Under the pieces are notes generated by a model. That model made no database searches, had not been told where the DNA came from, and saw only the letters and a list, made by a program, of their open reading frames with translations. From NCBI RefSeq assembly GCF_011682145.1, contig NZ_WHJH01000018.1, forward strand, positions 1 through 64,000: 64,000 bases of DNA, read 5' to 3'. Origin of the DNA: Massilia mucilaginosa. GTDB taxonomy: Bacteria; Pseudomonadota; Gammaproteobacteria; Burkholderiales; Burkholderiaceae_D. Positions within the stretch are counted from its first letter, which is position 1; each line of letters begins with the position of its first letter. A program made the translations under genes and the position numbers. Positions 21,163 to 38,742 of the stretch are shown one piece after another.

Positions 21163-21231
21163 GTAGTGCTCCAGTGAGAGGGTGGTGATCAGCAAGTGCG
21201 CGTCAATTGCGCATCATTTCGGCACACTTGC

Positions 21232-24081: not shown

Positions 24082-24128
24082 GACAGGCTCCACAAAGCGA
24101 ATGACTGCCCCGTCCGCTTTGAAAAGCC

Positions 24129-24250
24129 ATGATCCAGGTCAATCTATCTGACTGGAAAAGTTGACCGTGTTTGATCTGGCGCAAAGTCCGGCAGGGGGCT
24201 CGGTGACTGAGTTTTGCACCCGAGACGTTTGCACAACTGATCTGGATCAA
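24129..24250 (-). promoter_or_regulatory. Three FNR-like boxes upstream of the TonB receptor pair
   Basis: Read on the minus strand, the sites are TTGATCCAGATCAG (24250-24237), TTGCGCCAGATCAA (24184-24171) and TTGACCTGGATCAT (24142-24129), matching the TTGATnnnnATCAA consensus at 9, 8 and 8 of 10 positions. All share a CCAG/CTGG core. A −10-like TAGATT is at 24146-24141, with the middle box centred about 40-45 bases upstream of the expected start, as in class II FNR promoters. The third box overlaps the likely start site. Confidence 0.55.
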
Positions 24251-24577: not shown

Positions 24578-25639
24578 ATGCCACGCACCGACGATCTACG
24601 CATCCGCGAAATGAAGGAACTGACCCCGCCCTCCCATCTGATCCGCGAGTTCGCCTGCGGCGAGCGCGCCGAGCAGACCGCAGCAAGCTCGCGCGTGGCC
24701 CTGCACCGCATCCTGCACGGCCAGGATGACCGCCTGATGGTGGTGATCGGCCCCTGCTCGATCCACGATACCCGGGCGGCGATGGAATACGCGCGCCGCC
24801 TGATCGGCGAGCGCGAGCGCTTCAAGGGCGAACTGGAAATCGTCATGCGCGTGTACTTCGAAAAGCCGCGCACCACGGTCGGCTGGAAGGGCTTGATCAA
24901 CGATCCGTACATGGACAACAGTTTCCGCATCAACGACGGGCTGCGCATGGCGCGCGAGCTGCTGCGCGACATCAACGAGCTCGGTTTGCCGGCCGGCACC
25001 GAATACCTCGACGTGATCAGTCCGCAGTACATCGCCGACCTGATCAGCTGGGGCGCGATCGGGGCCCGCACCACCGAGTCGCAGGTGCACCGCGAACTGG
25101 CGTCCGGGCTGTCGTGTCCGGTGGGTTTCAAGAATGGGACCGACGGCAATATCAAGATCGCGGTGGAAGCGATCAAGGCCGCGTCGCAGCCGCACCACTT
25201 TTTGTCGGTGACCAAAGGCGGCCATTCGGCGATCGTGTCGACCAACGGCAATGAGGATTGCCACATCATCCTGCGTGGCGGCAAGACGCCGAACTACGAC
25301 GCCGCCAGCGTGGACCTGGCCTGCCAGCAGATCGCCGCGCAGGGCCTGGACGCGCGCCTGATGATCGACGCCTCGCACGCCAACAGTTCCAAGAAGCCGG
25401 AAAACCAGGTGCCGGTGTGCGCCGATATCGCGGCCCAGGTGGCCGGCGGCGACCGCCGGATAGTCGGCGTGATGGTCGAGTCGCACCTGGTGGCCGGGCG
25501 CCAGGACCTGGTGCCGGGCAAGGAACTGGTCTACGGCCAGTCGATCACCGATGGCTGCATCGATTGGGACAGCAGCGTGGCCGTGCTCGAAGGCCTGGCC
25601 GAGGCGGTGCGCCAGCGCCGCCAGCGTGCGCCAGCCTGA
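24578..25639 (+). CDS. aroG: 3-deoxy-7-phosphoheptulonate (DAHP) synthase, type I
   Basis: The enzyme condenses phosphoenolpyruvate and erythrose 4-phosphate, the first step of the shikimate pathway. The 353-residue protein has IGPCSIHD near residue 55, YFEKPRTTVGWKGLINDP, the GTEYLDVISPQYIADLISWGAIGART block and the metal-binding DASHANSSKK. Length and the N-terminal extension fit the feedback-regulated AroF/G/H type; the Phe/Tyr-rich leader suggests a Phe- or Tyr-responsive isoenzyme. GGAG stands 8 bases upstream of ATG 24578. Confidence 0.95.
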   Translation: MPRTDDLRIREMKELTPPSHLIREFACGERAEQTAASSRVALHRILHGQDDRLMVVIGPCSIHDTRAAMEYARRLIGERERFKGELEIVMRVYFEKPRTTVGWKGLINDPYMDNSFRINDGLRMARELLRDINELGLPAGTEYLDVISPQYIADLISWGAIGARTTESQVHRELASGLSCPVGFKNGTDGNIKIAVEAIKAASQPHHFLSVTKGGHSAIVSTNGNEDCHIILRGGKTPNYDAASVDLACQQIAAQGLDARLMIDASHANSSKKPENQVPVCADIAAQVAGGDRRIVGVMVESHLVAGRQDLVPGKELVYGQSITDGCIDWDSSVAVLEGLAEAVRQRRQRAPA

Positions 25640-26251
25640 GGCGGGCGCGACCGGCTGAAGATGCGGCACTGAAGCACAGCGGGGCTTGCGCCAGCAGCCC
25701 CGCGCCTCTCCTGATCAGGTGATACGGCGGCGCGCCAGGCGCCGTCGCCCGCTCATTATTCCCCACGCCGCGACCGGCGCCCATGTCGAACGCCGCCATG
25801 CGCAGTATGGCGCGCTTCCACGTGCCTGCATTCTAAGCGGGCACGGCTGCGCATTGCCAACCCCTGCAATTAATTTCCTTTATTCAATCACAAATTTCTG
25901 TTCCGTATGCAAGAAACTACAGTGCAATCGTATGCATGCGACCACGGCTGTTGTTTATATACATATTGTGTGTTTACCGTTGACATCAATTATTCCCATA
26001 TGTTTCTATCTTGGGCTTGATTGGCAGAAAAGCACAGAAGTGCGGCGCCAGTTGGAGAAAGTCGCTTTAAGCGAAGTGAAGAAGTTTCAGCCGACGGAGA
26101 CAAGGTTACCCAAAACTCGGCTGTTGTACCTTGCATCGGGACGTGTCCGCGATCCGGAACGTGCCACCGCGAGGTTCGCTACTTAAATTGATGCACCCTC
26201 CAAAAGAGATGGTGTTAATACTAATATTATATAAAATCAAGGGATTCACAC
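25640..26251. other. 612-base intergenic region
   Basis: Just after aroG, GCGGGGCT and AGCCCCGC at 25679-25704 form a hairpin without a T-run, perhaps a weak terminator. From about 25860 the base composition falls towards AT, with an AT-only run (TAATATTATATAAAAT) at about 26221-26236 close to the next gene start, where a promoter is likely. No coding sequence with family features was seen here. Confidence 0.5.
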
Positions 26252-29071
26252 ATGATGACAGAAACCGTTTTATCGCGTTCACTGCGCCTGGTCTTTTCGG
26301 GCGGTATCGCAGTCGGCCTCGGCCTTGCGGCATTGCCAGCCGTCGCCCAGACCGCTTCACAGGACAATTCGATGCAGCGCGTCGAGATCACCGGCTCGTC
26401 GATCAAACGCGTCGCCGCTGAAACCGCGCTGCCTGTCACCATTCTTCGCCGCGAAGACATCGAGCGCACCGGCGCCACCTCCGCACAAGACCTCGTCAAC
26501 CTGATTCCGGGTAACTTCGGCGGCGGCGTCACCGCCAACAACGTCGGCGCCTCCGGCGTGCCGTCGACCGCCAACCTGCGCGCCCTGGGCGCGCGCTACA
26601 CGCTGGTGCTGCTGAACGGCCGCCGCGTGGCCAACTATGCGGTCGGCAACAATCCGGTCGACTTGAACTCGATCCCGCTGTCGGCCATCGAACGCATCGA
26701 AGTGCTGCGCGACGGCGCCTCGGCCGTGTACGGCGCCGATGCGGTGGCCGGCGTGATCAACTTCATCCTGCGCAAGGATTACAAGGGCGTGGAAATGTCC
26801 GCCTTCAAGACCCATGTCGACCAGGGTGGCGGCAACACCAAGAGTTTCAATATCACGGCCGGCTTCGGCGACATCGCGACCGACCGCTTCAATGTGCTGG
26901 TCAGCGCCAATCACGAAGAGAACGAGAAGCTGACCGCCAGCGAGCGCAGCTTCTCGACCACCTCGGTACGTCCCGACCTCGGCCTGAACAAGGCGTCGCC
27001 GCGTAACGGCGTGCCCAACCTCAATTTCGGCGATACCCTCGGCAACAAGTATGTCGGCGTCAATCCGTACCGCTACAACGGTTGCGACAATCCCGAGTTC
27101 GCGCTGGTGGTCATCAGCGAAAAGGGCTGCGGCACCGATTACGTCAAGTACATCGACCTGATTCCGGAAGCGAAGCACTCGAACCTGGTCTCGCGCGCCG
27201 TCTTCAAGCTCAGCGAGAACCACGAACTGTTCGCCGAAGCGGCCTATACCCGCGACAAGATGATCTCGGCGTCGTCGCCGGCGCCGTACACCGAAACCAT
27301 GCGTTATCCGGCCAATGGCCGCTTCTACCCGAAAACGGTCAAGCTGCCGAAGGGCCTGGTACTGCCAGCCGGCTACAAAATGCCGAACGGCAGCGTCACC
27401 ACGGCGGAAACCGTGCTCGCCGCCGACATGGACGTGACCCCGACCGGTCCGATCACGGGTACCTGGCGTACCGTGCCCGGCGGCGGACGCAACGACCTGA
27501 CCACCACCGAGAACACCCGGGTCGTGGTCGGCGCCAAGGGCAATCTGGCCGGCTGGGATTACGAGACCGCGCTCACCTACGCCAAGAATGAAGTGGAAAT
27601 TTCCTTCGGTCCTGGCCGCTTCAGCTATGCCAAGCTGAAACCGCTGGTCGATTCCGGCGAAATCAACGTGTTCGGCACGCAGGACGCGGCCAGCCTGGCC
27701 GGCCTGCTCGGTTCGCAGTTGACCGGCTTCCAGAACGGCGGCACCTCGACCTCGAAAGAATTCGATTACAAGATGTCGCGCGAGATCTACAACCTGCCCT
27801 ATGGCGCGGTTGGCTTCTCGGTCGGTACCTCGTTCCGCAAGGAAGAGCTGAAACAGGTTTCCTCGCCAGTACTGGCCTCGGGCGACGAAGTCGGCGGCGC
27901 CGGCGAAATTCCGAGCGTGTCGGGCGACCGCGAGGTGTTCGGCCTGTTCACCGAAGCGATCATCCCGGTCTACAAGGACCTTGAACTGACCGCCGCGGCG
28001 CGCTACGACAAGTACAAGAACGGCTTCGGCACCGAGTTCGACAACATCAGCCCGAAACTCGGCTTCACCTATCGTCCGAGCACCGCCATCATGATGCGCG
28101 GTTCGGTGGCGCGCGGCTTCCGCGCGCCGACCCTGGTCGACAACCTGAACCCGAAGGCGATCAACAATACCTCGGCCAGCTTCAGCGATCCGATCCGTTG
28201 CCCGAACGGGGTGCCGGTCAACAGCGTCAACACCGTTGGCGAACTGCAGGACGAGTGCGACGTTCAGCTGAGCACCCAGAACAGCGGCAATCCGGACCTC
28301 AAGCCCGAGAAATCGAAGCAGTTCACGGTGGGCCTGGTATTCCAGCCGACGGCAACGTTCAGCGGTTCGATCGATTACTGGAACGTGAAGATCGACAAGT
28401 CGATCAACGCCATGTCCGAAACCACGGTGTTCAACGATCCGGTCGGCAACGTGGCCCAGTTCTATCGCTACGATCCGGCCACCGGCATTGTTTATCCGGG
28501 CAGCACCAACAAGGATTTCCCGCTCTCCTACGTGGCCCTGCCGCGCGTGAACACGGGTAAATTCTTCGCCGCCGGCGTCGACCTGAACCTGAACTATCGC
28601 CAGAAGATGGGCGACATGGGCACCATCGGCGCCAACTACGACGTCACCTACTACACCGACCATGGTTACCAGTACCAAGGTTCGCCGGAAGTGAGCGACC
28701 TGGGCGACTTCAAGGATTTCGGTCCGACCCCGCGCTACCGCCATACCCTTGGCGCGACCTACGCCATCGGCCAGTGGAATGCATCGCTGACGCATAACTA
28801 CACCAAAGGCTACAAGGACTACACCGACCTGGCCTCGGTCGGCCCCGACTACCCGCTGGTGCGCAAGGTCGATGCCTATTCGACCTTCGACGCGGCGCTG
28901 GGCTGGAAGCCGATGAAAAACGTGAGCGTTACCCTGGGCGTGAAAAACCTGACGGACGAGGATCCACCATCGTCGCGTAACGGACAGAATTTCCAGGTCG
29001 GCTACGATGCGACCTTCACCAACCCGCTGGGCCGCACGTTCTACGCACGTCTGAACTACAAGTTCCTGTAA
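26252..29071 (+). CDS. TonB-dependent outer-membrane receptor (type C)
   Basis: 939 residues. Signal peptide (LGLAALPAVAQ), VEITGSSIKR at the mature start, plug (IEVLRDGASAVYGADAVAGV) and a barrel with FRAPTLVDNLNP and the late NLTDEDPPSSRNGQNFQVG. The sequence ends YKFL: the usual terminal Phe is followed by a Leu, which is unusual for recognition by the barrel-assembly machinery. It differs from the other receptors in the window by its plug variant. It stands alone, with a long AT-rich upstream region and a strong terminator behind. The substrate is unknown. Confidence 0.9.
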   Translation: MMTETVLSRSLRLVFSGGIAVGLGLAALPAVAQTASQDNSMQRVEITGSSIKRVAAETALPVTILRREDIERTGATSAQDLVNLIPGNFGGGVTANNVGASGVPSTANLRALGARYTLVLLNGRRVANYAVGNNPVDLNSIPLSAIERIEVLRDGASAVYGADAVAGVINFILRKDYKGVEMSAFKTHVDQGGGNTKSFNITAGFGDIATDRFNVLVSANHEENEKLTASERSFSTTSVRPDLGLNKASPRNGVPNLNFGDTLGNKYVGVNPYRYNGCDNPEFALVVISEKGCGTDYVKYIDLIPEAKHSNLVSRAVFKLSENHELFAEAAYTRDKMISASSPAPYTETMRYPANGRFYPKTVKLPKGLVLPAGYKMPNGSVTTAETVLAADMDVTPTGPITGTWRTVPGGGRNDLTTTENTRVVVGAKGNLAGWDYETALTYAKNEVEISFGPGRFSYAKLKPLVDSGEINVFGTQDAASLAGLLGSQLTGFQNGGTSTSKEFDYKMSREIYNLPYGAVGFSVGTSFRKEELKQVSSPVLASGDEVGGAGEIPSVSGDREVFGLFTEAIIPVYKDLELTAAARYDKYKNGFGTEFDNISPKLGFTYRPSTAIMMRGSVARGFRAPTLVDNLNPKAINNTSASFSDPIRCPNGVPVNSVNTVGELQDECDVQLSTQNSGNPDLKPEKSKQFTVGLVFQPTATFSGSIDYWNVKIDKSINAMSETTVFNDPVGNVAQFYRYDPATGIVYPGSTNKDFPLSYVALPRVNTGKFFAAGVDLNLNYRQKMGDMGTIGANYDVTYYTDHGYQYQGSPEVSDLGDFKDFGPTPRYRHTLGATYAIGQWNASLTHNYTKGYKDYTDLASVGPDYPLVRKVDAYSTFDAALGWKPMKNVSVTLGVKNLTDEDPPSSRNGQNFQVGYDATFTNPLGRTFYARLNYKFL

Positions 29072-29136
29072 TTGCCGGAGTGCGCGGCGGTTGACAGACA
29101 GCCACCGCGTACGCTTGCAAGAAACTTGTAGGACGT

Positions 29137-29175
29137 AAAAAACCCCGCCGGACATGCGTCCGGCGGGGTTTTTTC
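29137..29175 (+). terminator. Intrinsic terminator after the type C receptor
   Basis: AAAAAACCCCGCCGGAC, a short loop, GTCCGGCGGGGTTTTTT: a long GC stem with a T-run in both directions, about 65 bases after the receptor stop. It isolates the isoprenoid cluster downstream. Confidence 0.9.
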
Positions 29176-29207
29176 ATGGCGGTCCGTCCTTGCGGCATAT
29201 CAGGGAC

Positions 29208-29221
29208 TTGATCTGTATCAA
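29208..29221 (+). promoter_or_regulatory. Perfect FNR/ANR box before ispH
   Basis: TTGATCTGTATCAA matches the TTGATnnnnATCAA consensus at all ten defined positions. Its centre lies about 28 bases before a −10-like TAAGCT (29243-29248), close to class II FNR spacing. The gene start (29287) would be about 30 bases from the transcript start, with CGGAGGACGT as ribosome binding site. This implies activation under low oxygen. Confidence 0.75.
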
Positions 29222-29286
29222 GCCCGCCCCGGCCCAGGCACGTAAGCTCTAAAGCGGACTGATCCAGTCTCCGCTTCGGAGGACGT

Positions 29287-30240
29287 ATGCAAATCGTGTT
29301 GGCCAATCCGCGCGGCTTTTGTGCCGGGGTCGAGCGGGCGATCGAGATCGTCGAGCGCGCCCTGGACGTGTTCGGCGCGCCGGTCTACGTGCGCCACGAG
29401 ATCGTGCATAACCGCCACGTGGTCGACTCCCTGCGCGCGCGCGGCGCGCTGTTCGTCGAGGAGCTGGCGCAGGTGCCCGAGCACAGCATCGTGGTGTTCA
29501 GCGCGCACGGGATCGCGCCCCGGGTCCGGGCCGAGGCCGACGCGCGCGGCCTGCGCGTGTTCGACGCCACCTGTCCGCTGGTCGGCAAGGTCCACATGGA
29601 GGTCGGGCGCCACGCGCGCGACGGCCGCGAGGTGGTCCTGATCGGCCACGCCGGGCATCCCGAAATCGTCGGCACGCTCGGCCACTACAGCGGCCCCAAC
29701 GCGCGCGCCATCCACGTCGTCGGCAACGCCGAGGAGGCCGCCCGGCTCCAGGTGCGGGACGGCACGCGCCTGGCGTACGCGACCCAGACCACGTTTTCGA
29801 TCGACGACATCAAGCCCATCCTGCACATCCTGCAAGAGCGCTTTCCGGCGCTGACCGGGCCGCGCAAGGAAGACATCTGCTACGCCACCCAGAACCGCCA
29901 GTCCGCCATCAAGGAACTGGCCGCCACCTGCGACCTGATCCTGGTGATCGGCTCGCCCGCCAGCGCCAACTCGCAGCGCCTGCGCGAGATCGCCGCCCAG
30001 CAGCACGTCGCCGCCCATCTGATCGATCACGCCGACCAGTTGCAGCGCGCATGGTTCGAGGGCCGGCGCCGCGTCGGCATCACCTCCGGCGCCTCCACCC
30101 CCGAAGTCCTGCTCACGCAGGTGGTGGCGCGCCTGCAAGAGTGGGGCGCCGGCCCGGTGGAAAATCGTCCCGGCGTGCGCGAGCACGTGGTGTTTGCCCT
30201 GCCGCGCGAACTGGCCGGCGCCGTGCGTTCCGGAACCTGA
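29287..30240 (+). CDS. ispH: 4-hydroxy-3-methylbut-2-enyl diphosphate reductase
   Basis: IspH (LytB) is the last enzyme of the methylerythritol phosphate pathway and makes IPP and DMAPP using a [4Fe-4S] cluster. The three cluster cysteines are present (C12 in RGFCAGV, C96 in [10 protein letters not shown]198 in [11 protein letters not shown]), as are H41, H124 and the catalytic E126 ([10 protein letters not shown]). Length (317) is typical. It heads a plus-strand cluster with two unknown proteins and a prenyl synthase and lies 66 bases after an FNR box. IspH is oxygen-sensitive, so an anaerobically controlled, perhaps second, copy is plausible; whether another ispH exists in the genome cannot be seen here. 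Confidence 0.95.
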
Positions 30241-30266
30241 ACGCCAACCCTGTGAGGAGAACCGCC

Positions 30267-30635
30267 ATGCCCGAACAAACCGTCTCGATCGTGTCCTGGC
30301 CGGAGCAATCGGCCCGGCTCGAACACACCTTCAAACTCGACAAGCCGTGCCCGGTCTCGATTGCGTTCGAACCGGCGCCGGCCAATGTGATGCTCTCGAG
30401 CGACCCGCAGCGGCCGCTCCAGGTCAGCATGAACATGCAGCTGGCCGCGCGCGAGCCGGTGCCGGTGTGCATCACCGTGTGCGAGCCGATCTGCGCGCGC
30501 AGCGACTACACGATCGGCATCGAGGTGTTCGGCAACCCGTTTGCCAGCATCACCGTGCGCGGCACCACGCGCCTGTTCGCCTGCCGCGACGACGTGCCGA
30601 CGCCGACGCCGACCCCGGTGCCGGTGCCGGGCTGA
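30267..30635 (+). CDS. Unrecognised small beta-rich protein of the isoprenoid cluster
   Basis: 122 residues with no signal peptide and no family I recognise. The sequence looks like an all-beta domain (alternating hydrophobic strands such as VSIVSW, YTIGIEVFG) with a cluster of cysteines in VCITVCEPICARSDY and an extended tail of Thr-Pro and Val-Pro repeats (PTPTPTPVPVPG). GAGGAG stands 7 bases before the ATG at 30267, and the gene lies 26 bases after ispH, so both are translated from one transcript. The Pro-rich tail suggests a linker or docking role. Confidence 0.75.
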   Translation: MPEQTVSIVSWPEQSARLEHTFKLDKPCPVSIAFEPAPANVMLSSDPQRPLQVSMNMQLAAREPVPVCITVCEPICARSDYTIGIEVFGNPFASITVRGTTRLFACRDDVPTPTPTPVPVPG

Positions 30636-30703
30636 TATGTCCGGCGCCGCGCACGCGTACCCGCCTTTCCAACCGCTATCGTCACACCAAGGAGCTGTGA
30701 GCA

Positions 30704-31396
30704 ATGCCAAGCAATGAAAGCGACAACATCAGCATGAGCCGGGCCGAACTCGATTACCTGATCCGCATGGCCGGCAAGACGTCCCGCATCGTGCAGCAGG
30801 CCGCCTCGACCCTGGAAGAAGAAATCGCGCTCGGCGTGGCGGCGGCCAAACGGGTGGAAATGCGCTTCGTGGACGTGGAAAAACTGCGCGCCGGCGACCC
30901 CGCCGACGTGATGCAGCGCTTTCGCCGCGACGCGCACGAGGTGGTCGACATCCTGCTTGACATGGTGGTCCTGGCCAGCAATTCGCTCGGCGCGCTGTCG
31001 GAGCGGGTGGTCACGGTGCGCCCCGGCGGCGGCGCGGCGGTGCCGAAGCAGGGCGGCGACGCCACCGCGTCGTTAAAGATGCCGCAGCCGATCGCGCCGG
31101 GCGGCTCGCTCAGCGTGCCGATGACGCTGGAAAACGCGGCCGATGTCCCGACCGACATGTTTCGCTTCCACTGCTCCGACCTGCTCAGCGAAAGCGGCGC
31201 CCGTCTCGCGGCGGCGCGGATCGGCTTCGTGCCGGAGCAGCTGTTCATCCCCGCGCGCTCGGCGGCGACGGTGCAGATCACCGTGACGGTGCCGCCGGAC
31301 GCCGCGCCCGGCACCTATTCCGGGCTGCTGCTGGCCAGCCAGCTGGAACAGGTGCGCGCCGTGCTCACCGTGCAGGTCGAGTCGCCCGGTGAGTGA
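30704..31396 (+). CDS. Unrecognised protein: helical N-terminus plus Ig-like beta domain
   Basis: 230 residues in two parts. Residues 1-105 are helical and charged (MSRAELDYLIRMAGKTSRIV, LDMVVLASNSLGALSERV). Residues about 120-228 look like an immunoglobulin-like sandwich of the kind found in alpha-galactosidase NEW3 or CARDB domains (PIAPGGSLSVPMTLENAADVP, then VPPDAAPGTYSGLLLASQLE). No signal peptide is seen, which is odd for such a domain. AAGGAG lies before the start. Its last codons overlap the start of the prenyl synthase by eight bases, so the two are coupled. Not assigned to a function. Confidence 0.75.
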   Translation: MPSNESDNISMSRAELDYLIRMAGKTSRIVQQAASTLEEEIALGVAAAKRVEMRFVDVEKLRAGDPADVMQRFRRDAHEVVDILLDMVVLASNSLGALSERVVTVRPGGGAAVPKQGGDATASLKMPQPIAPGGSLSVPMTLENAADVPTDMFRFHCSDLLSESGARLAAARIGFVPEQLFIPARSAATVQITVTVPPDAAPGTYSGLLLASQLEQVRAVLTVQVESPGE

Positions 31397-32432
31397 GGCG
31401 GCCGGGCGTTCCCGTTTCGTCGAGGCCAGCCTGGCGCGCTACAAGGACATCACCATGGCGCGCCTGCTGGAATACCTGCCCAGCAAGGAGCCGCGGCGCT
31501 ATCTGTACGACCTGCTGCCGGTGTATCCGCTGCGCTCGGGCAAGGGCTTGCGTCCGGCGCTGTGCATCGCCGCCTGCTGCGCGTTCGGGGGCGAGGTGCG
31601 GCGGGTGCTCGAATCGGCGGTCGCCATCGAGCTTTATCACAACGCCTTCCTGATCCACGACGACATCGAAGACGGCAGCGAAAGCCGGCGCGGCCAGCCG
31701 ACCCTGCAGGCCGACCAGGGCCTGGCGGTCGCGCTCAACGTGGGCGACGCCATGCAGGTGCTGTGCATCCGCCTGTTGCTCAACAACCTGACCATCGTCG
31801 GCCCGCAACTGACCTGGCGCATCGTCAACGAAATCGAGCACATGGTGTGCCAGACGGTCGAAGGCCAGGCGCTGGAACTGGGCTGGGTGCGCGACAACGT
31901 GGCCGACCTGAGCGAGGAAGACTACCTGCGCATGGTGCTCAAGAAAACCTGCTGGTACACCTGCATGCACCCGCTGCGCATCGGCGCGCTGATCGCCAGC
32001 GGCGGCGCGCTGCCGCTTGACCGCTTCGACCGCTTCGGCTACTACATGGGCGCGGCGTTCCAGATCCAGGACGACATCCTCAACCTCGACGCCGACGAGG
32101 GCAAGTACGGCAAGGAAATCAATGGCGACATCTGGGAGGGCAAGCGCACCTTGATGCTGATCCACACGGTGGGCCGCTGCGACGAGGATGAAAAACAGCG
32201 CATCCGGCGCTTCCTGGCGCTTGGGCGCGGCGCGCGCCAGCAAGCCGAGGTCGACTGGGTGCGCGCCACGATGGACAAGTACGGCGGCGTCAATCACGCG
32301 CGCAGCTGCGCGCGCCAGCTGGCCGGCGCGGCCCTGCATGAATTCGACCTGATCTTCGGCGCGCTGCCCGACTCCGAGCACAAGCGCTTCTTGCAGCAAG
32401 TGGTGCTTTACATGATCGAGCGCGATTCGTAG
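31389..32432 (+). CDS. Short-chain polyprenyl diphosphate synthase
   Basis: A trans-prenyltransferase that joins IPP units to an allylic diphosphate. It has the first Asp-rich motif DDIED (D91, D92, D95) followed by SRRGQPT, and the second as DDILNLD (D228, D229) with KEINGDIWEGKRTLMLI. A Phe (F87) lies four residues before the first Asp, a position that limits chain length in many such enzymes; this suggests a C15-C20 product by inference. Length 347. It starts with GTG inside the end of the preceding gene. Upstream ispH could supply its substrates; the convergent reductase could act on its product. Its 3' end overlaps that reductase by 25 bases. Confidence 0.9.
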   Translation: MSEAAGRSRFVEASLARYKDITMARLLEYLPSKEPRRYLYDLLPVYPLRSGKGLRPALCIAACCAFGGEVRRVLESAVAIELYHNAFLIHDDIEDGSESRRGQPTLQADQGLAVALNVGDAMQVLCIRLLLNNLTIVGPQLTWRIVNEIEHMVCQTVEGQALELGWVRDNVADLSEEDYLRMVLKKTCWYTCMHPLRIGALIASGGALPLDRFDRFGYYMGAAFQIQDDILNLDADEGKYGKEINGDIWEGKRTLMLIHTVGRCDEDEKQRIRRFLALGRGARQQAEVDWVRATMDKYGGVNHARSCARQLAGAALHEFDLIFGALPDSEHKRFLQQVVLYMIERDS

Positions 32433-33937
32433 CCGAGCGCGGCGGGGGGCGGCGCCATGGCCTGCCCGCCCGGGCGCAGCAGCGCCCCGGCCACGCCGCC
32501 GCCCAGTTCCAGCGCGCTGCCGGCCACGCCCAGGCCCCAGTCGAGCGCGGCGCGCGGATCGGCCGCCATCGACAGCGCCACCCCGGCCGCCGCCGTGCCG
32601 GTTTGCAAGCCGAGCCGCACGCAATGGGCGCGCCCGCGCAGCAGGTGGCGCGCGCCCATCCCGCCCAGCGACAGCAGCGACTGCAAGGCGGTCTTGCGCA
32701 GGATGTCGGCGCCCATCACGCGGCGCGCCGGCACCAGCCCGGCCAGCACGCCGCCGGTGACATCGGCGTAGGCAGGGTCGGTGCGGGCGCGCGCCACGAT
32801 GATGCGCAGCGCGTCGAGCCACAGCGGGGTCAGGTGGCGGTTGCGGATCAGCTGCACGATCAGGCGCGCCAGCGCCATGTCGAAGCGCAGCTCGCGTTCG
32901 ACCCGCTGCGCGTAGGGCAGCAGGCTGGCGTGCGAAAAATCGTCGCGCGCGCGCGCCGCGATCAGGGTCTCGGCGGCCCAGCGTCCGCTCAGCATGGCGT
33001 ACTGGATGCCTTCGCCGTTGAGCGGGTTGATCAGGCCGGCGGCGTCGCCCGCCAGCAGCACGCGCCCGCCCACGCAGGGCAGGGCGGGATCGTAGGTGGT
33101 CAGCGGCCAGCCGGTCACCGGGCCGCGCGGTTGCGCCTTGCCGAGGCGTGCGCGCAGGGCCGGGTCGCTGGAGATCAGGCGCAGCATCAGCTGGCGCAGA
33201 TGTTCCTCGTTGCGCGGCAAGGTCTCGCGCACCATGCCGATGCCGACATTGGCCGAGGTCGGACCGGTCGGGAACAGCCAGTAATAGCCGGGGAAGGTGT
33301 CGTCCGAAAAATACAGGTCGCAGCGCTTGCCGGTGTCCGGCAAGCCGTCCATGTAGCAGCGCATGGCGATGATGCGGTTGCGGTCCGGCACCGCGTGCCC
33401 GCGCAGCAGGCGGGCGACGATGGAACTGCTGCCGTCGGCGCCGATCAGGGCTTGCGCGCGCAGGGTGGCCGGGCCGGCCGGGCCGTTGACCGTCACGCTG
33501 ACGCCGTCGGCGCCGCTGTCGAAGCCCTGGACGCGGGTGTTTTCCAGCACCCGTGCGCCGGCCGCGCGCGCCCGCTCGAGGATCCACTGGTCGAGCGCCT
33601 TGCGCGCGATGACCCGGCCATGCGCCGGCATGCCCGCCACGCGCGGGATGGGATGGGTGATCAGGTGGCGCCCGTTCAGGTACAGCGCGGCTTCGTGGAT
33701 GATCGTGGTTTGCCGGTAGCCGGGCAGGCCGGTGATGCCGAGGCTGTCGAGTTCGAGCAGGGCGGCCGGGCCGACGAAGTCGCCGCAGACTTTATCGCGC
33801 GGGAATTGCTGGTGGTCGAGCAGGAGGACGGAAAAGCCGGCGTCGGCCAGATGGGCGGCCGCGGCGGCGCCGGCCGGGCCGGCACCCGCGATAATCACGT
33901 CGCCATCGCGCGCGGAGGCAATTTTCAGAGTCAGCAT
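32408..33937 (-). CDS. Geranylgeranyl-reductase-family FAD oxidoreductase
   Basis: 509 residues. The FAD-binding motif is GAGPAGAAAAAHL near residue 18, with the C-shaped VCGDFVGPAAL region, FPGYYWLFP (the PxxYxWxFP signature of this family) and GDAAGLINPLNGEGIQYAM. Members reduce isoprenoid double bonds (geranylgeranyl chains in chlorophyll, archaeal lipids, menaquinone) or act as related monooxygenases. The C-terminal part (roughly residues 405-500) is Ala- and Gly-rich with helical stretches and is longer than in many members. It is convergent with the prenyl synthase, overlapping by 25 bases. A weak FNR-like sequence lies at 33994-34007 upstream. Confidence 0.85.
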   Translation of the reverse strand: MLTLKIASARDGDVIIAGAGPAGAAAAAHLADAGFSVLLLDHQQFPRDKVCGDFVGPAALLELDSLGITGLPGYRQTTIIHEAALYLNGRHLITHPIPRVAGMPAHGRVIARKALDQWILERARAAGARVLENTRVQGFDSGADGVSVTVNGPAGPATLRAQALIGADGSSSIVARLLRGHAVPDRNRIIAMRCYMDGLPDTGKRCDLYFSDDTFPGYYWLFPTGPTSANVGIGMVRETLPRNEEHLRQLMLRLISSDPALRARLGKAQPRGPVTGWPLTTYDPALPCVGGRVLLAGDAAGLINPLNGEGIQYAMLSGRWAAETLIAARARDDFSHASLLPYAQRVERELRFDMALARLIVQLIRNRHLTPLWLDALRIIVARARTDPAYADVTGGVLAGLVPARRVMGADILRKTALQSLLSLGGMGARHLLRGRAHCVRLGLQTGTAAAGVALSMAADPRAALDWGLGVAGSALELGGGVAGALLRPGGQAMAPPPAALGYESRSIM

Positions 33938-34149
33938 GGTCGGGCTCCAGGCACGGGAATCTTTCAGTGTCGGATGGATCGGGAGCGAGCTTCATGATTT
34001 GACGCAAAGCTAGCTCGGAGTCTGCATCAGCGTTGATATGTCCCGACGCGAGGGCCATGCGCTCATGCTGTAATCGCTGGCGGCGGCGCTCCTGCACTGT
34101 CCTGGCAGATGCTTGAGTGTGGGTAGCTACGCGTAAATGCCGCAGGGAC

Positions 34150-34410
34150 ATGGAGCGCTACAGTTGGGATCGTGCTCAGGTGGGCTGCATGCTATGCGCA
34201 CTGCGCCCCGGGCGGCGGCCCAAGGGCGATTACCAAAAGTCGGCGTGGTGCGAAGTCGACGGAGGCGGAATGTTCGCGTGCGATGTATATCACCTGCCTT
34301 TTGATGAAGTAAGGGGCGAGAGAAATCCCAACGGCCTTTCCATTTATCTGAAATTTTCATTGGATGAGTACGGCGAGCCGATGTTGGTGCTCGTTTCCTG
34401 CCATCTTTAA
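34150..34410 (+). CDS. MqsR-like toxin of a type II toxin-antitoxin pair
   Basis: 86 residues. The layout follows MqsR, a ribosome-independent mRNA interferase: DYQKSAWCEVDGGG, then CDVYHLPF, then LSIYLKFSLDEYGEPMLVLV near the end, which match the DFYKS, DVYRPRL and QVYLKI...VLIVSF elements of E. coli MqsR. It directly precedes an MqsA-type antitoxin, in the toxin-first order of mqsRA. ATG 34150 follows CAGGGAC; an upstream GTG at 34117 is less likely. The N-terminus is shorter than in E. coli MqsR. Confidence 0.7.
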   Translation: MERYSWDRAQVGCMLCALRPGRRPKGDYQKSAWCEVDGGGMFACDVYHLPFDEVRGERNPNGLSIYLKFSLDEYGEPMLVLVSCHL

Positions 34411-34431
34411 ACGAACGCAAGGATGACTGCC

Positions 34432-34947
34432 ATGGCGACAAAAATGACTTGCCGTGTCTGCAAGAACGGCACCTTACATGAGGTGGTGTCGCGTCGTGAC
34501 TTTTTCCCTAACAAGAAGCAGGTCAGCGTGGAGCTTCTGGAATCGCGCTGCGACGCGTGCGGCGCCATCAGCATCGTCGCCGCGCAGCATTCCGAGAACT
34601 TGCGCAGGCTCGCCGCGCGCAAGGCGGAATACGACGGCCAGCTGATGGGAGAAGAGTCCATTGCGCTGCGCAAGCGCTATGGACTGACGCAGCAACAGGC
34701 CTCGAAGATCTTCGGCAAAGGGTTGATTGCATTTTCGCGCTACGAAAATGAGGATTCGTATCCAGATACCTCAACGCGGCTCTTGATCGAGCTTGCGATT
34801 GCCAGGCCGGACGTTCTCAAGACACTGGCGGAGCGCGCCGGCGTTGCGATCCCCCTGTGGAAAGAGCGCTGCGAAGACGATCAGCGCATGATGGGCAGCC
34901 GCCGTTCGGCGGCAGTGTCGGGACGGCCCACCCTCGCGCATGAGTAA
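34432..34947 (+). CDS. MqsA-type antitoxin and transcriptional regulator
   Basis: 171 residues. N-terminal zinc ribbon with two CxxC pairs (C7/C10 and C40/C43), which in MqsA binds the toxin, followed by a linker and an XRE helix-turn-helix (YGLTQQQASKIFGKGLIAFSRYE). The C-terminal tail after about residue 130 is longer than in E. coli MqsA. The ATG at 34432 has AAGGA 8 bases upstream; an ATG at 34423 is too close to it. It lies 21 bases after the toxin gene. Confidence 0.85.
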   Translation: MATKMTCRVCKNGTLHEVVSRRDFFPNKKQVSVELLESRCDACGAISIVAAQHSENLRRLAARKAEYDGQLMGEESIALRKRYGLTQQQASKIFGKGLIAFSRYENEDSYPDTSTRLLIELAIARPDVLKTLAERAGVAIPLWKERCEDDQRMMGSRRSAAVSGRPTLAHE

Positions 34948-35112
34948 GCAATAGCACCGCATTGGTGCTTGCGCTGACGAGGTCTTCAACGCGTCACCCT
35001 GCCCATGGCAATCGCATCCGGCCCGGTTCGTCAAACATGCGCAGCTATTTCCAGATCAGCATGGGCGGCAATCGTGGCCCCGCCCCGCCCGGCCGCGCCA
35101 GCGTCCAGACGA

Positions 35113-35150
35113 AAAAAAAACCGCCGGACTGTGCATCCGGCGGTTTTTCA
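35113..35150 (-). terminator. Intrinsic terminator of the TonB receptor at 35167
   Basis: On the minus strand it reads AAAAACCGCCGGATGCACAG and continues TCCGGCGGTTTTTTTTT. The T-run follows the receptor's stop codon by about 50 bases. Confidence 0.85.
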
Positions 35151-35166
35151 TATCAGCCCAGGAGGC

Positions 35167-37785
35167 TTAAAACGCGTAGCTGGCGCGCAGGTACACCGCG
35201 CGGCCGATCGGATCGCTGAAGCGCGGATCGTAGCCCTTCTGGAACAGGGTGCCCTGGTTCGAGAATGGCGGCTGTTCGTCCAGCAGGTTTTTCAGGCCGG
35301 CGGTCAGGGTCAGGCCCTGGACGCCGCTGTAGCTGCCCGACAGGTTCAGCAGGCTGTAGGCTTCGACCTTGTGCTTGAACTCGTCGGCGACCTGGTTCTG
35401 GTCCTGGTACGAGGACTTGAACGATTGCGACAGGTTCACGCCCCATGGACCGTTGCTCCAGTTCAGCGCTGCCGTGTGCTGCCAGCGGAACACCGGCGCC
35501 ATGTCGGCGTAGCGGCCCACGTTGTGGACGAACTCGCCATTGCGCTCGTTCTGGTAGTCGTACTTGTGCACGTAGGTACCGTCCATGGTCACGGTGAAGT
35601 TGCCATAGCTGGTGCGCGGCAGGCGCAGGGTCATGCTCAGGTCGACGCCGTCGGTCTTGACTTCGCCCAGGTTGTTGAGGAAGTTTTCGATCGCGTTCGG
35701 CGAGCCGTCCGGATTACGCAGGAACAGCGCCTTGTACTTCTCGTAGTTGCCGTAGATGGTTTGTTCCGGCAGGGCGGCGATCTTGTCCTTCAACTGGATG
35801 TTCCAGTAGTCGGCGGCGATCGTCACGCTCGGGATCGGCTCGATCACCGCGCCGAAGGAGAACGACTTCGATTTTTCCGGCTTCAGGTTGATATTGCCGC
35901 CTTGCAGCTTGTACTGTTGCAGGTTGCAATCACGTAGCGGATTCGAGCCTGGCTGCGGCTTGCCGCCCGGGCACAGGATTGGATCGTTGTAGCTGTCGTT
36001 GGTATCGTTGCGCGACGGCGGGCCGTTCTTTTCGAACAGGGTCGGCGCGCGGAAACCGGTACTGGCCGAACCGCGCACCAGCACTTGCGGGGTCGGCTGG
36101 TAGCGCAGGCCGACTTTCGGGTTGGTGGTGTTGCCGACGTCGCTGTAGCGGTCGTAACGGGCCGCCAGCTGCACTTCCAGTTCCTTGGTGAAAGGCAGGT
36201 TCAGTTCGGTGAACACGGCCTGGATATTGCGCGAACCGGTTTTCGACAGCGAACCCGACAGGCCCGAGCTCGACGCCTGCGAGGCGATCGCGCGGTTGAC
36301 GTTGAATGCGGCCGTCTCGCGCCGGATCTCGGTGCCGACGGCGACTGCCATCTGGCCGCCGCCCATGGCCATGATGTCGCGGCTGGCCTTGAAATCGAAG
36401 GCGGTGTTTTTCACTTCGGCGCTCTGGACGCGGCCGCGCAGGGCGGTGCTGTCGAGGTAAGCCTTGCCGGCCGCATCCTGCAGCGCGAACGGGTTGAGGA
36501 TGCCATTGGCCACGCCGGCCGCGAACAAGGCGTCGGCCACGTAGCCGCCCATGAAGTCTTCGCTCGACTTGGAGATCGAATGCGCGATGCCGCCCTTGTA
36601 ATCCCAGCCCGCCAGCAAGCCTTCCATGCCGAACACCACGCGGTCGGCCTTGCCTTGCGAATCGATGGTGCGCTGGCCCGCTTCCAGCGGACGCCAGTTG
36701 ACCGACAACGGTCCGCCCGACACGCCGCTCTTCGGATAGTACTTGCTGGTGTTCGGCAGGATCAGGCCGGTCTGCGGCGGCGGCGCGGTACGCGAGGTCA
36801 CGTCGTTTTGCGAATGCAGGAATTCCAGGCTGGCCAGGTGGTCGGCACCGAGTTTCATGCTGCCGCGCGCGAACAGGGCCAGTTGTTCCTGGTCGGGCAT
36901 GCTGTCGATCTGGCGCGTGTAATCCTGGCGGCAGATGCCGTCCGCGTTCGGTACCGAGAATGGTGGATTGCAACCGGTGGCCCAGCCCGGGCTGCCGGAC
37001 TTGTCGGCGCCGGCATCGTAGAAGTTGGCCGGGAAGGTGGTGCCGGACGTCAGGTCCAGGCCGCGGCTCGGAACGATCCCGGTTTTCGAGAATTCGCGCT
37101 CCTGCGAACCGATCGATTTCTGCTTGTGCCAGTCGACCACGCCGAAGACGTTGAAGCCGTCCTTGTCGAGGTTGCCGAAGCCGCTGGACAGGTTGACGCG
37201 CTCTTCGTCGCCGCCTGCCTTGCGCGGGCGCACCAGTTCGCCGGTGATGGTGGTGGTCGTGACCGAGCGCTTGGTGATGAAGTTGATCACGCCGCCGATG
37301 GCGTCGGTGCCGTAGATGGCGGAAGCGCCGTCGCGCAGCACTTCGACCCGGTCGAGGGCGGACAGGGGAATCATGTTCAGGTCGACGCTGGAGCTGTCGT
37401 ACGGGTGGTTGGCGAGGCGCCGTCCGTTGAGCAGCACCAGGGTCTTGTCGCCGCCCAGGCCGCGCAAGTCCGCGCTGGCCTGGCCGCCGGTCGGCAGGCC
37501 GCTGCTGTTGCCGCCAACGACGTTGCCGCTGCCCATGGTGCTCTGGTTCGATGGAATGCGCGACAGCGCTTCCTGGGCCGTGGTCAATCCCTGTTTGATG
37601 AACTCGTCGGCCTTGATGATCGACAGCGGGTTGGCGGTTTCGCTTTGAATGCGTTTGATCGACGATCCGGTGATCTCGACGCGCTGCATCGGCTGGCCGT
37701 CCTGGGCGAAGGCCGCGCCTGCAAAGCCGCCGCCGGCTGCAAACATCGCGCCCAACGACAGGGATAATACGGTTGGCTTCATCAT
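35167..37785 (-). CDS. TonB-dependent outer-membrane receptor (type A)
   Basis: 872 residues. Signal peptide (FAGAAFAQ), VEITGSSIKR near the mature start, plug (VEVLRDGASAIYGTDAIGGV) and a barrel ending YLRASYAF. ATG 37785 was chosen because GGAG lies 9 bases upstream; a second ATG follows at once. It is closest in this window to the receptor at 18472-21162: similar LVNLNMIPL/LNIIPV plug loops, LGSDKT/LGGDKT, and late NERNG...VDRYDYQ/VHKYDYQ blocks. No substrate hints. It has its own terminator and lies downstream of the TerB-like gene in the opposite direction. Confidence 0.9.
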   Translation of the reverse strand: MMKPTVLSLSLGAMFAAGGGFAGAAFAQDGQPMQRVEITGSSIKRIQSETANPLSIIKADEFIKQGLTTAQEALSRIPSNQSTMGSGNVVGGNSSGLPTGGQASADLRGLGGDKTLVLLNGRRLANHPYDSSSVDLNMIPLSALDRVEVLRDGASAIYGTDAIGGVINFITKRSVTTTTITGELVRPRKAGGDEERVNLSSGFGNLDKDGFNVFGVVDWHKQKSIGSQEREFSKTGIVPSRGLDLTSGTTFPANFYDAGADKSGSPGWATGCNPPFSVPNADGICRQDYTRQIDSMPDQEQLALFARGSMKLGADHLASLEFLHSQNDVTSRTAPPPQTGLILPNTSKYYPKSGVSGGPLSVNWRPLEAGQRTIDSQGKADRVVFGMEGLLAGWDYKGGIAHSISKSSEDFMGGYVADALFAAGVANGILNPFALQDAAGKAYLDSTALRGRVQSAEVKNTAFDFKASRDIMAMGGGQMAVAVGTEIRRETAAFNVNRAIASQASSSGLSGSLSKTGSRNIQAVFTELNLPFTKELEVQLAARYDRYSDVGNTTNPKVGLRYQPTPQVLVRGSASTGFRAPTLFEKNGPPSRNDTNDSYNDPILCPGGKPQPGSNPLRDCNLQQYKLQGGNINLKPEKSKSFSFGAVIEPIPSVTIAADYWNIQLKDKIAALPEQTIYGNYEKYKALFLRNPDGSPNAIENFLNNLGEVKTDGVDLSMTLRLPRTSYGNFTVTMDGTYVHKYDYQNERNGEFVHNVGRYADMAPVFRWQHTAALNWSNGPWGVNLSQSFKSSYQDQNQVADEFKHKVEAYSLLNLSGSYSGVQGLTLTAGLKNLLDEQPPFSNQGTLFQKGYDPRFSDPIGRAVYLRASYAF

Positions 37786-38149
37786 GCTGTTCAACTCCAT
37801 CCAAAAGTGAGAGGGGACTATAGAATCATCAGGGGCAGCGGGTGTCAATCGTGCAAGATTGGCTTTGATCGAAATACAACGAAAATGGCTAAATTGTTTA
37901 GCTTGATTTGCAAAGTAAGCTTCCAGTCAGCAAGTACGTTCACAGGCGCCACACCTGTTGCAACGCAACAAAGCGCGCCTGCATGCATATGCATATCCGC
38001 AAGACGATGCAAGGAAGAGGGCGATGCCTGCGCAGCGCTTCATGCCCTTCATCGGTGGCAGCAGTCCTGTCCACAACGAGCTCATTTCCGAAATCGCCGT
38101 ACAATGAATCGCAAGATTGACATGTCGTTTCAACCAGAAGGATAAAACT
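37786..38149. other. Divergent intergenic region, 364 bases
   Basis: Between the receptor (minus) and the TerB-like gene (plus). AT-rich near the receptor. The 16-base GGGCGATGCCTGCGCA occurs at about 38019-38034 and again at 38693-38708, on either side of the TerB-like gene, so that gene may have been inserted between repeats. A −10-like TACAAT lies near 38100. Confidence 0.5.
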
Positions 38150-38584
38150 ATGCGTTCCTACCCACCCGATAGCCCGCAGGCTGTCTCGCGACTGCTGGTT
38201 CTGTGCGTCATTGCTGACGGTGGTGGCTCGCCGCTTGAGATTGCGGCCACGTACCGACTTGGCATTCTTGACTCCGCAGGCATTCAAGAAGATGTTTTCG
38301 ACCAGGTGCTTCGTGAGATGTGCACTGATCTCCCGACGACTCCTGACGGGCTGGTGCGGGTTGAGACAGAAATGATTGATCAGATGCTGGCGGAAATTTT
38401 GCGACCCGACCTGCGCCTGAGCGTATGGAAGGCCATGTGGCAATTGTCCTACGCGGACGACCAACTGGCCGACGGCGAACTCGCACTACTTCTCAAGGCC
38501 ACGAGCGCATGGGGAATAAAGGAGGGCGATAAGGGAAGTGGCCCGGTAGCCGCGCGGAGTTCGGTGCCACATCCGGCGACATAG
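38150..38584 (+). CDS. TerB-like protein
   Basis: 144 residues, mainly helical, with two acidic ADxxxxxxE-type segments (VIADGGGSPLEIA and SYADDQLADGELALL) like those in TerB, the metal-binding protein of tellurite and stress systems. No other ter genes are nearby, so it is probably a member of the broader TerB-like group found as single genes. AGAAGGA is 9 bases upstream of ATG 38150. The tail after about residue 118 is Ser/Pro-rich and low in structure. Confidence 0.6.
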   Translation: MRSYPPDSPQAVSRLLVLCVIADGGGSPLEIAATYRLGILDSAGIQEDVFDQVLREMCTDLPTTPDGLVRVETEMIDQMLAEILRPDLRLSVWKAMWQLSYADDQLADGELALLLKATSAWGIKEGDKGSGPVAARSSVPHPAT

Positions 38585-38742
38585 GGGAAACAGGAACAGA
38601 CAAACGCGCAGACGAATCCGGCCAATTCGACCAGCGGACACAACCATCGTGTCCTCATGCGCAGGCACGCCGTTGTAGCGGAACCGAAAAAGGGCGATGC
38701 CTGCGCACCGCCCTCCGCTCATGCAATCACAGCTGCCTCAGG

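Follow-up and report, generated by a model that had tools for sequence, protein, structure and literature searches.

Isoprenoid precursors are normally taken as a shared pool, and IspH, the 4-hydroxy-3-methylbut-2-enyl diphosphate (HMBPP) reductase, is normally encoded by a single housekeeping gene. UbiA is, like the prenyl synthases, a prenyl-transfer enzyme, and in the heptaprenyl diphosphate synthase HepS/HepT a prenyl synthase has a helical partner. Fusions of IspH to UbiA, to RPS1 and to other partners were listed and read as functional coupling (Rao et al. 2015, PMC4746011). In the polyprenyl transferase/terpene cyclase operons described for family 2 encapsulins, a trans-prenyl synthase gene shares an operon with the gene of an enzyme-organising shell; minor family 1 operons are given in a supplementary figure of the same paper (Andreas and Giessen 2021, PMC8346489). 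Here we describe a five-gene module at positions 29208-33937 of a 64,000 nucleotide window (the whole stretch of DNA that was analysed) of Massilia mucilaginosa, in which a second ispH gene (ispH2), two genes for undescribed proteins, X and Y, and the gene of a trans-prenyl diphosphate synthase (PS) lie together with that of a geranylgeranyl-reductase-family flavoprotein (GGR).

We give about even chances to the locus being an isoprenoid metabolon operon in which a helical module of protein Y, named H, docks both IspH and PS. The main ground for taking H as a docking part common to the two enzymes is that it occurs with both. An earlier reading made from the DNA letters alone (the sequence-only reading) had proposed an isoprenoid module in which two unrecognised partner proteins could be a scaffold; the module and its partners are supported, and the scaffold or docking role is plausible. 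Titles and abstract openings of the open-access literature, a scope outside which subscription papers and preprints lie, yielded no description of the gene set among the matches listed.

The genes ispH2, X, Y and PS follow one another on the plus strand, and GGR lies on the minus strand, convergent with PS. All five were found where they had first been placed, and their tight spacing with partial overlaps was confirmed: PS, which starts with GTG, overlaps Y by 8 bases, and GGR overlaps the end of PS by 25 bases. The same locus is present in Massilia aquatica, M. atriviolacea and M. rubra. Ratios of nonsynonymous to synonymous substitution rates (dN/dS) against three relatives revealed purifying selection on all five genes (PS, 0.18-0.24; ispH2, 0.29-0.35; GGR, 0.30-0.38; X, 0.16-0.26; Y, 0.18-0.23), and the low values of X and Y indicate that both behave as genes.

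Protein Y and the contexts of its helical module

Protein Y (30704-31396, plus strand; 230 amino acids) stays under every Pfam and NCBIfam cut-off. It combines the H module (30734-31021, plus strand), with two predicted helices, and a predicted immunoglobulin (Ig)-like module of PapD/MSP/NEW3-like type (31058-31393, plus strand). This division into a helical half and an Ig-like domain, already proposed from the letters, agrees with a structure model and with Foldseek matches. The model, built from four close sequences, has two long helices of low confidence and an Ig-like domain with a predicted local distance difference test (pLDDT) score of 69-87 over residues 121-210, the blocks after residue 210 scoring 55 and 73. 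Foldseek returned generic Ig-like sandwiches, with similarity to GH123 N-terminal, PapD-like and MSP domains. Ig-like domains of such kinds often bind partners. The best match of the Y profile among solved structures had an E value of 0.028, and plasmids searched directly with Y gave no match. In the whole module, constraint is strongest on the helical half (residues 1-106), with dN/dS of 0, 0.05 and 0.08, and the Ig half is looser (0.28-0.46). Such tight constraint on H is consistent with a docking module, which would need a tightly held surface.

H was found in four contexts: together with the Ig module, on its own ahead of PS, on its own next to ispH, and as part of an IspH fusion. A free H protein adjoins ispH in locus L018 and matches the Massilia H profile at 1.2e-4. 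In L082, from a genome of a different class of the phylum (probably Alphaproteobacteria), the module IspH carries a tail of about 150 residues containing H; the tail matched an H profile of eight rows, L018 included, at E 4.2e-8 (best shuffled ORF [open reading frame], 0.34) and the L018 H protein alone at E 1.6e-12 among 1831 ORFs. The sequence-only reading had contained neither this fusion nor the encapsulin genes described below. The list of IspH fusions in the relevant section of PMC4746011 holds none to an H-like module; the L082 fusion differs from those listed in that its fused part is a helical module otherwise belonging to the partner of a prenyl synthase.

Outside Massilia, 16 loci of the PS subfamily were compared (L016-L021, L026, L038-L042 and L082-L085). 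L016-L018 were first found with Y and the other 13 with PS; the 16 are not independent, L019 and L020 being near-identical and L038-L042 coming from one genus. In 15 of the 16, Y or a half of it is found no more than 7 kb from PS, assigned by sequence in 8 and by position and layout only in 7; for the 13 loci found with PS the figures are 12 in all and 5 by sequence. A profile made from Massilia Y proteins only matched, at E <= 1e-3, L016 (1.4e-15), L017, L018, L019, L020, L021 and L083 (3e-4), with L019 and L020 matching in the Ig half only and L021 in the H half only. In loci that had been located with PS alone, the Ruegeria Ig half gave E values of 1.4e-7 and 9e-8 and the Kitasatospora H half 1.1e-8; as controls, shuffled ORFs reached 0.037 at best, and among unrelated real ORFs the best match was an Ig-type protein at 0.0019. 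A wider profile, A4, added L082 (6e-12), and L084 was marginal (8e-4). Since Ruegeria and Kitasatospora plasmids are among these loci, the pair of Y and PS crosses phyla.

In L026, L038-L041, L084 and L085 a helical-then-Ig-like ORF, in L039 chosen by eye, stands directly before PS or is fused with it, as in L041, where a single open frame covers both the Y-like part and PS. The Y-like proteins of L026 and L038-L041 have a short Ig motif in common with Y (hhalign P 0.001, probability 21%), and a profile of four Y-like proteins matched L084 (1e-33) and L085 (6e-31).

Three layouts are recurrent, one of which, the encapsulin type, is described further below. In the IspH type, IspH, PS and Y are accompanied by X in Massilia, L018 and L082; among the loci scanned, GGR is added in Massilia alone. 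The flavoprotein type (L026, L038-L041, L084 and L085) has a large flavin adenine dinucleotide (FAD) enzyme, a Y-like ORF, PS and a dehydrogenase-like gene, and L021 has H and PS only. L018 (1995-11753, genome G162) and L082 (1249-10636, genome G1381), from different classes, have a larger cluster in common that holds IspH, H, X, Y, unknown proteins of about 460-580 residues, a protein of 352-354 residues that is CrtC/AttH-like by eye, and a PS bearing an unknown N-terminal part of more than 200 residues. Acetoacetate-decarboxylase-like proteins were seen near PS in L016 (8156-10246), L042 (9015-10412) and L026 (12519-14983); the L016 and L042 proteins and the first of those in L026 matched PF06314 below its cut-off, and in L016 this part is fused to Y. 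A protein with a nucleotide cyclase domain lies within about 10 kb of PS in L016, L019, L038, L039, L041 and L042.

The closeness of Y to PS would also be expected if Y were the non-catalytic small subunit of a heteromeric, HepS-like prenyl synthase, with H lining the product cavity and setting the chain length, and no scaffold for IspH. Y, Y-like or H ORFs do overlap or adjoin PS in several lineages, and in Kitasatospora a free H ORF overlaps the start of PS. We nevertheless regard this explanation as unlikely: H is also fused to IspH or stands beside it, no Pfam prenyl synthase subunit family occurred among the 6 families matched by 7 Y members (E <= 10), and Y adds an Ig domain, which HepS is not known to have.

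In 5 of the 16 loci (L016, L017, L019, L020 and L042) the gene run of PS includes a shell gene of the family 1 encapsulin type. L016, L017 and L019 combine it with an HpnE/CrtI-like flavoprotein, PS and Y or the Ig half; L020 has shell, PS and Ig half, with no flavoprotein listed in its incomplete gene table, and L042 has shell and PS. Against the family 1 cut-off of 100, the Ruegeria shell passes at 105.7, and those of L016 (59.9) and L042 (35, partial) do not; the L017 gene is cut by the contig end. These relatives thus differ from the family 2 systems in the type of shell gene near PS, and the Ruegeria-type operon may be among the minor family 1 operons of PMC8346489. A Linocin_M18 shell gene was found in none of 17 genomes of the genus Massilia, the home genome included; family 2 shells were not searched for. 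The Ruegeria plasmids (L019, L020) combine PS with a family 1 encapsulin and a DUF3237 protein near a nap nitrate reductase operon; L019 also has an HpnE-like flavoprotein, and the edge of L018 shows a NorC-like gene by eye. A bolder version of the docking reading, which we hold to be possible but doubtful, is that H is a general docking tag of isoprenoid enzymes, attached to IspH in one lineage and to an Ig adaptor in others and standing free ahead of PS in an actinomycete, and that the systems are channelled factories from IspH to PS, some within a family 1 encapsulin shell and others, that of Massilia among them, held by X and Y. If so, this may be, to our knowledge, the first compartment-capable metabolon from the methylerythritol phosphate (MEP) pathway to a finished prenyl chain.

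The shell genes in some relatives and the helical part of Y would also suit a different arrangement, in which X and Y form the coat of an isoprenoid lipid inclusion, as phasins do on polyhydroxyalkanoate (PHA) granules, with the enzymes on its surface. Two Y-like proteins gave weak matches to Phasin_2 (E 0.05 and 0.2, below the cut-off). Phasins were found by search in 18 of 21 relatives, and 30 matched segments were used as a profile. Comparison with the profile of these 30 segments scored no better than that with a reversed profile, on which ground phasin identity of Y was dropped, and the best match of the phasin profile among the module ORFs had an E value of 0.31. We therefore consider the inclusion coat quite improbable.

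Y is rare: it was found in 4 of 17 genomes of the genus, in 1 of 97 drawn from the family, in 4 of 399 drawn from the order and searched with a profile, and in 3 of 369 drawn from the class. In the order draw PS is always at the same locus, no more than about 7 kb away. The three class-draw matches are the home genome, G528 and G529; the latter two are weak and were taken as unrelated Ig-type proteins, with no prenyl synthase nearby in ORF lists read by eye, and that of G529 sits among pilin and secretion-type genes. Y is hence not widespread without the enzymes, a distribution that the sequence-only reading had named as speaking against it, and co-occurrence extends to the reductase, GGR and Y being present in the same 4 of 17 genus genomes (G099 holds a further, weaker GGR relative elsewhere, 39% identical over 320 residues). 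Members of the PS subfamily, defined by profile A6 at a cut-off of our choosing (E <= 1e-70), were found in 9 of the 399 genomes of the order draw, in 2 of 398 drawn from the phylum and in 5 of 216 from the order to which G1081 belongs. The home genome is part of the first three counts, and there is overlap between the draws. A contig scan with Y patterns found three Massilia, and says little on distant relatives because only two N-terminal patterns were used. Viral contigs searched with PS gave one match, a more distant prenyl synthase (38%) beside which nothing Y-like was noticed.

Enzymes of the module

The product of ispH2 (29287-30240, plus strand) scores 468.7 bits against the NCBIfam equivalog NF002188 (cut-off 420) and has the cluster cysteines C12, C96 and C198, as expected of an HMBPP reductase. 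The home genome holds two LYTB genes, so that the count of ispH copies proposed at the outset came to two, the second being in the module. Among 19 genomes of our selection, a second IspH was found in 7 and always within the module: the four module-bearing Massilia, G162, G1381 and G1294. Of the 12 genomes with a single IspH, four are Massilia that lack the module, and the other eight have PS loci in which no ispH is seen. In a tree of 18 sequences (7 module, 11 housekeeping), one branch separates the module IspHs from the housekeeping ones with support of 94/90, just below the 95 mark; the G1381 module copy groups with that of G162 (93/97), and their housekeeping copies lie apart. The placement of the G1294 copy is unsure because its branch is very long. 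IspH2 is 53% identical to the home IspH1 and 53% to the L018 copy. As the best explanation we favour a module-specific lineage of IspH, a conclusion that could well fall either way.

PS (31389-32432, plus strand) scores 191.5 bits against PF00348 (cut-off 27) and has two Asp-rich motifs, which place it among the trans-prenyl diphosphate synthases; by alignment A6 and its motifs KKTCWY, DDIED and DDILN, the last replacing the second DDxxD, it belongs to a rare subfamily. It reaches no chain-length equivalog (best 181.3 bits against 468). The model of family 2 encapsulin cargo polyprenyl transferases, NF041169, is among its best matches, yet the score of PS (178.1 bits, cut-off 450) stays below that of the family.

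GGR (32408-33937, minus strand) scores 219 bits against TIGR02032 (cut-off 158.8) and like other geranylgeranyl reductases passes this family cut-off; it differs in sitting with IspH and two putative adaptor proteins. It carries the motif YYWLFPTGPTSANVGIG, of the form YxWxFP...GxG, which is known from archaeal reductases. Among the best 25 of 119 matches no other cut-off is passed. The C-terminal YxSRSIM of GGR was considered as a targeting peptide and rejected, its conservation having a simpler cause in that it sits within the 25-base overlap with the conserved end of PS. GGR was not found in the non-Massilia loci scanned, many of which carry HpnE/CrtI-like or other flavoproteins. The notion that a prenyl chain is made and then reduced, also part of the sequence-only reading, accordingly fits Massilia but does not extend to the other loci scanned.

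All of these enzymes come from common families, and MenJ and digeranylgeranylglycerophospholipid reductase are among the best sub-cut-off matches of GGR, as would be the case in an ordinary quinone, carotenoid or lipid-tailoring cluster with X and Y as incidental small genes. GGR, however, stays far below the MenJ cut-off (NF045655, 136.8 bits against 700). No UbiA or other prenyl acceptor enzyme, phytoene synthase or terpene cyclase was found among the ten proteins scanned at 24578-37848, the rest of the window being read by eye only. Y moreover accompanies PS across phyla, and fusions exist. An ordinary cluster is for these reasons rather improbable.

Protein X, promoter region and neighbouring genes

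Protein X (30267-30635, plus strand; 122 amino acids) is predicted to be all-beta and to represent an undescribed family, and stays under every Pfam and NCBIfam cut-off. Relatives were found in L018 (E 1.5e-5, Massilia-only profile) and L082 (E 1e-18, profile with L018 included). Its cysteine cluster stood in part: C68, C72 and C76 are fixed in the four Massilia, but only C28 and C72 are invariant when the L018 relative is included. The Pro-rich tail is present, but its length varies among relatives. The structure model was unusable (pLDDT 38), the best match of the X profile among solved structures had an E value of 0.8, and plasmids searched directly with X gave no match.

The module is separated from the upstream TonB-dependent receptor gene by an intrinsic-terminator-like hairpin with a T run 3' of that gene (29137-29175, plus strand), read by eye, whose stem is kept in a four-row alignment. 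The FNR/Anr-like site TTGATCTGTATCAA (29208-29221, plus strand) is centred about 41 bases before a probable start point. It is the only perfect copy of TTGATNNNNATCAA within the window; when one mismatch is allowed, the window has 3 matches (0.61 expected), and 3 or more occurred in 4 of 100 shuffles. A -10-like TAAGCT (29243-29248, plus strand), found by eye and identical in four Massilia, is placed as in a class II FNR promoter, by the spacing usual for that class. The FNR-like site is only partly kept, being identical in one of three relatives (L007) and altered to TTGATTTGGCGCAA and TTGATCTGGCTCAA in the other two. It suggests FNR-type control of the operon, and would fit the module because IspH carries an oxygen-sensitive 4Fe-4S cluster. 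In the non-Massilia loci scanned (L020 left out) no perfect FNR site was found, and their one-mismatch sites are inside genes or far from the module start. Oxygen regulation, another element of the sequence-only reading, is thus backed by a promoter-like site in Massilia but by no comparable site in the other loci scanned.

A second FNR-like site, CTGATCTGGATCAA, with one mismatch, lies before aroG at 24237-24250 and is also present in L007, L008 and L009. Adjoining the module at 34117-34947 are an ORF that has no Pfam match and occupies the position of MqsR, and an antitoxin gene of the MqsA family (PF15731, TIGR03830); L007 and L008 retain MqsA only in part, and none was found in L009. Five large TonB-dependent-receptor-like genes surround the module (18472-24093, 26252-29071 and 35167-41535). 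Pfam confirms two of them, and homologues of both flank the module in all three relatives.

A possible isoprenoid metabolon

The genes observed here, with their families, co-conservation, fusions, second IspH and promoter-like site, could fit together as follows. IspH2 would supply isopentenyl diphosphate (IPP) and dimethylallyl diphosphate (DMAPP), PS would condense the C5 units to a prenyl diphosphate, probably C20 or longer, and GGR would saturate double bonds in the prenyl chain or in a lipid derived from it. Y would be a dedicated docking protein whose H module binds IspH and PS and whose Ig-like module joins complexes together or to X, which would be another adaptor. An FNR-type regulator would, in Massilia, switch the operon on at low oxygen, suiting the 4Fe-4S enzyme IspH. 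Adaptors such as X and Y would explain both the enzymes travelling together and the second recruitment of IspH.

Several points weigh against this scheme. Physical docking is something that we infer, as are the order of steps, the chain length, the product and the regulation. The helices of H are modelled with low confidence. The Massilia-only H profile matches the L082 tail only at E 0.18, behind the best shuffled ORF (0.053), so that the link between H and IspH runs through the L018 protein. Y in L026, L038-L041, L084 and L085 is assigned by position and layout, and the proteins of L026 and L038-L041 are called Y-like on that ground because the similarity of their helical parts to H is not significant (E 0.06). 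L042 is without Y, though a contig end is close by; Y lies 2 to 6 kb from PS in L018, L082 and L083 and adjoins it in the others; and the L041 fusion is without parts of both domains, in a genome rated 79% complete. A clear X was seen in no loci but those of Massilia, L018 and L082, and two of the four Massilia have an imperfect FNR-like site.

If the scheme is true, a dedicated IspH and a prenyl synthase held by a common docking part would form a private line from the last MEP step to the finished chain. This would offer a natural scaffold for building terpenes, and prenyl synthases would join the possible contents of family 1 encapsulins. In X and Y, two protein families that are now undescribed would gain names.

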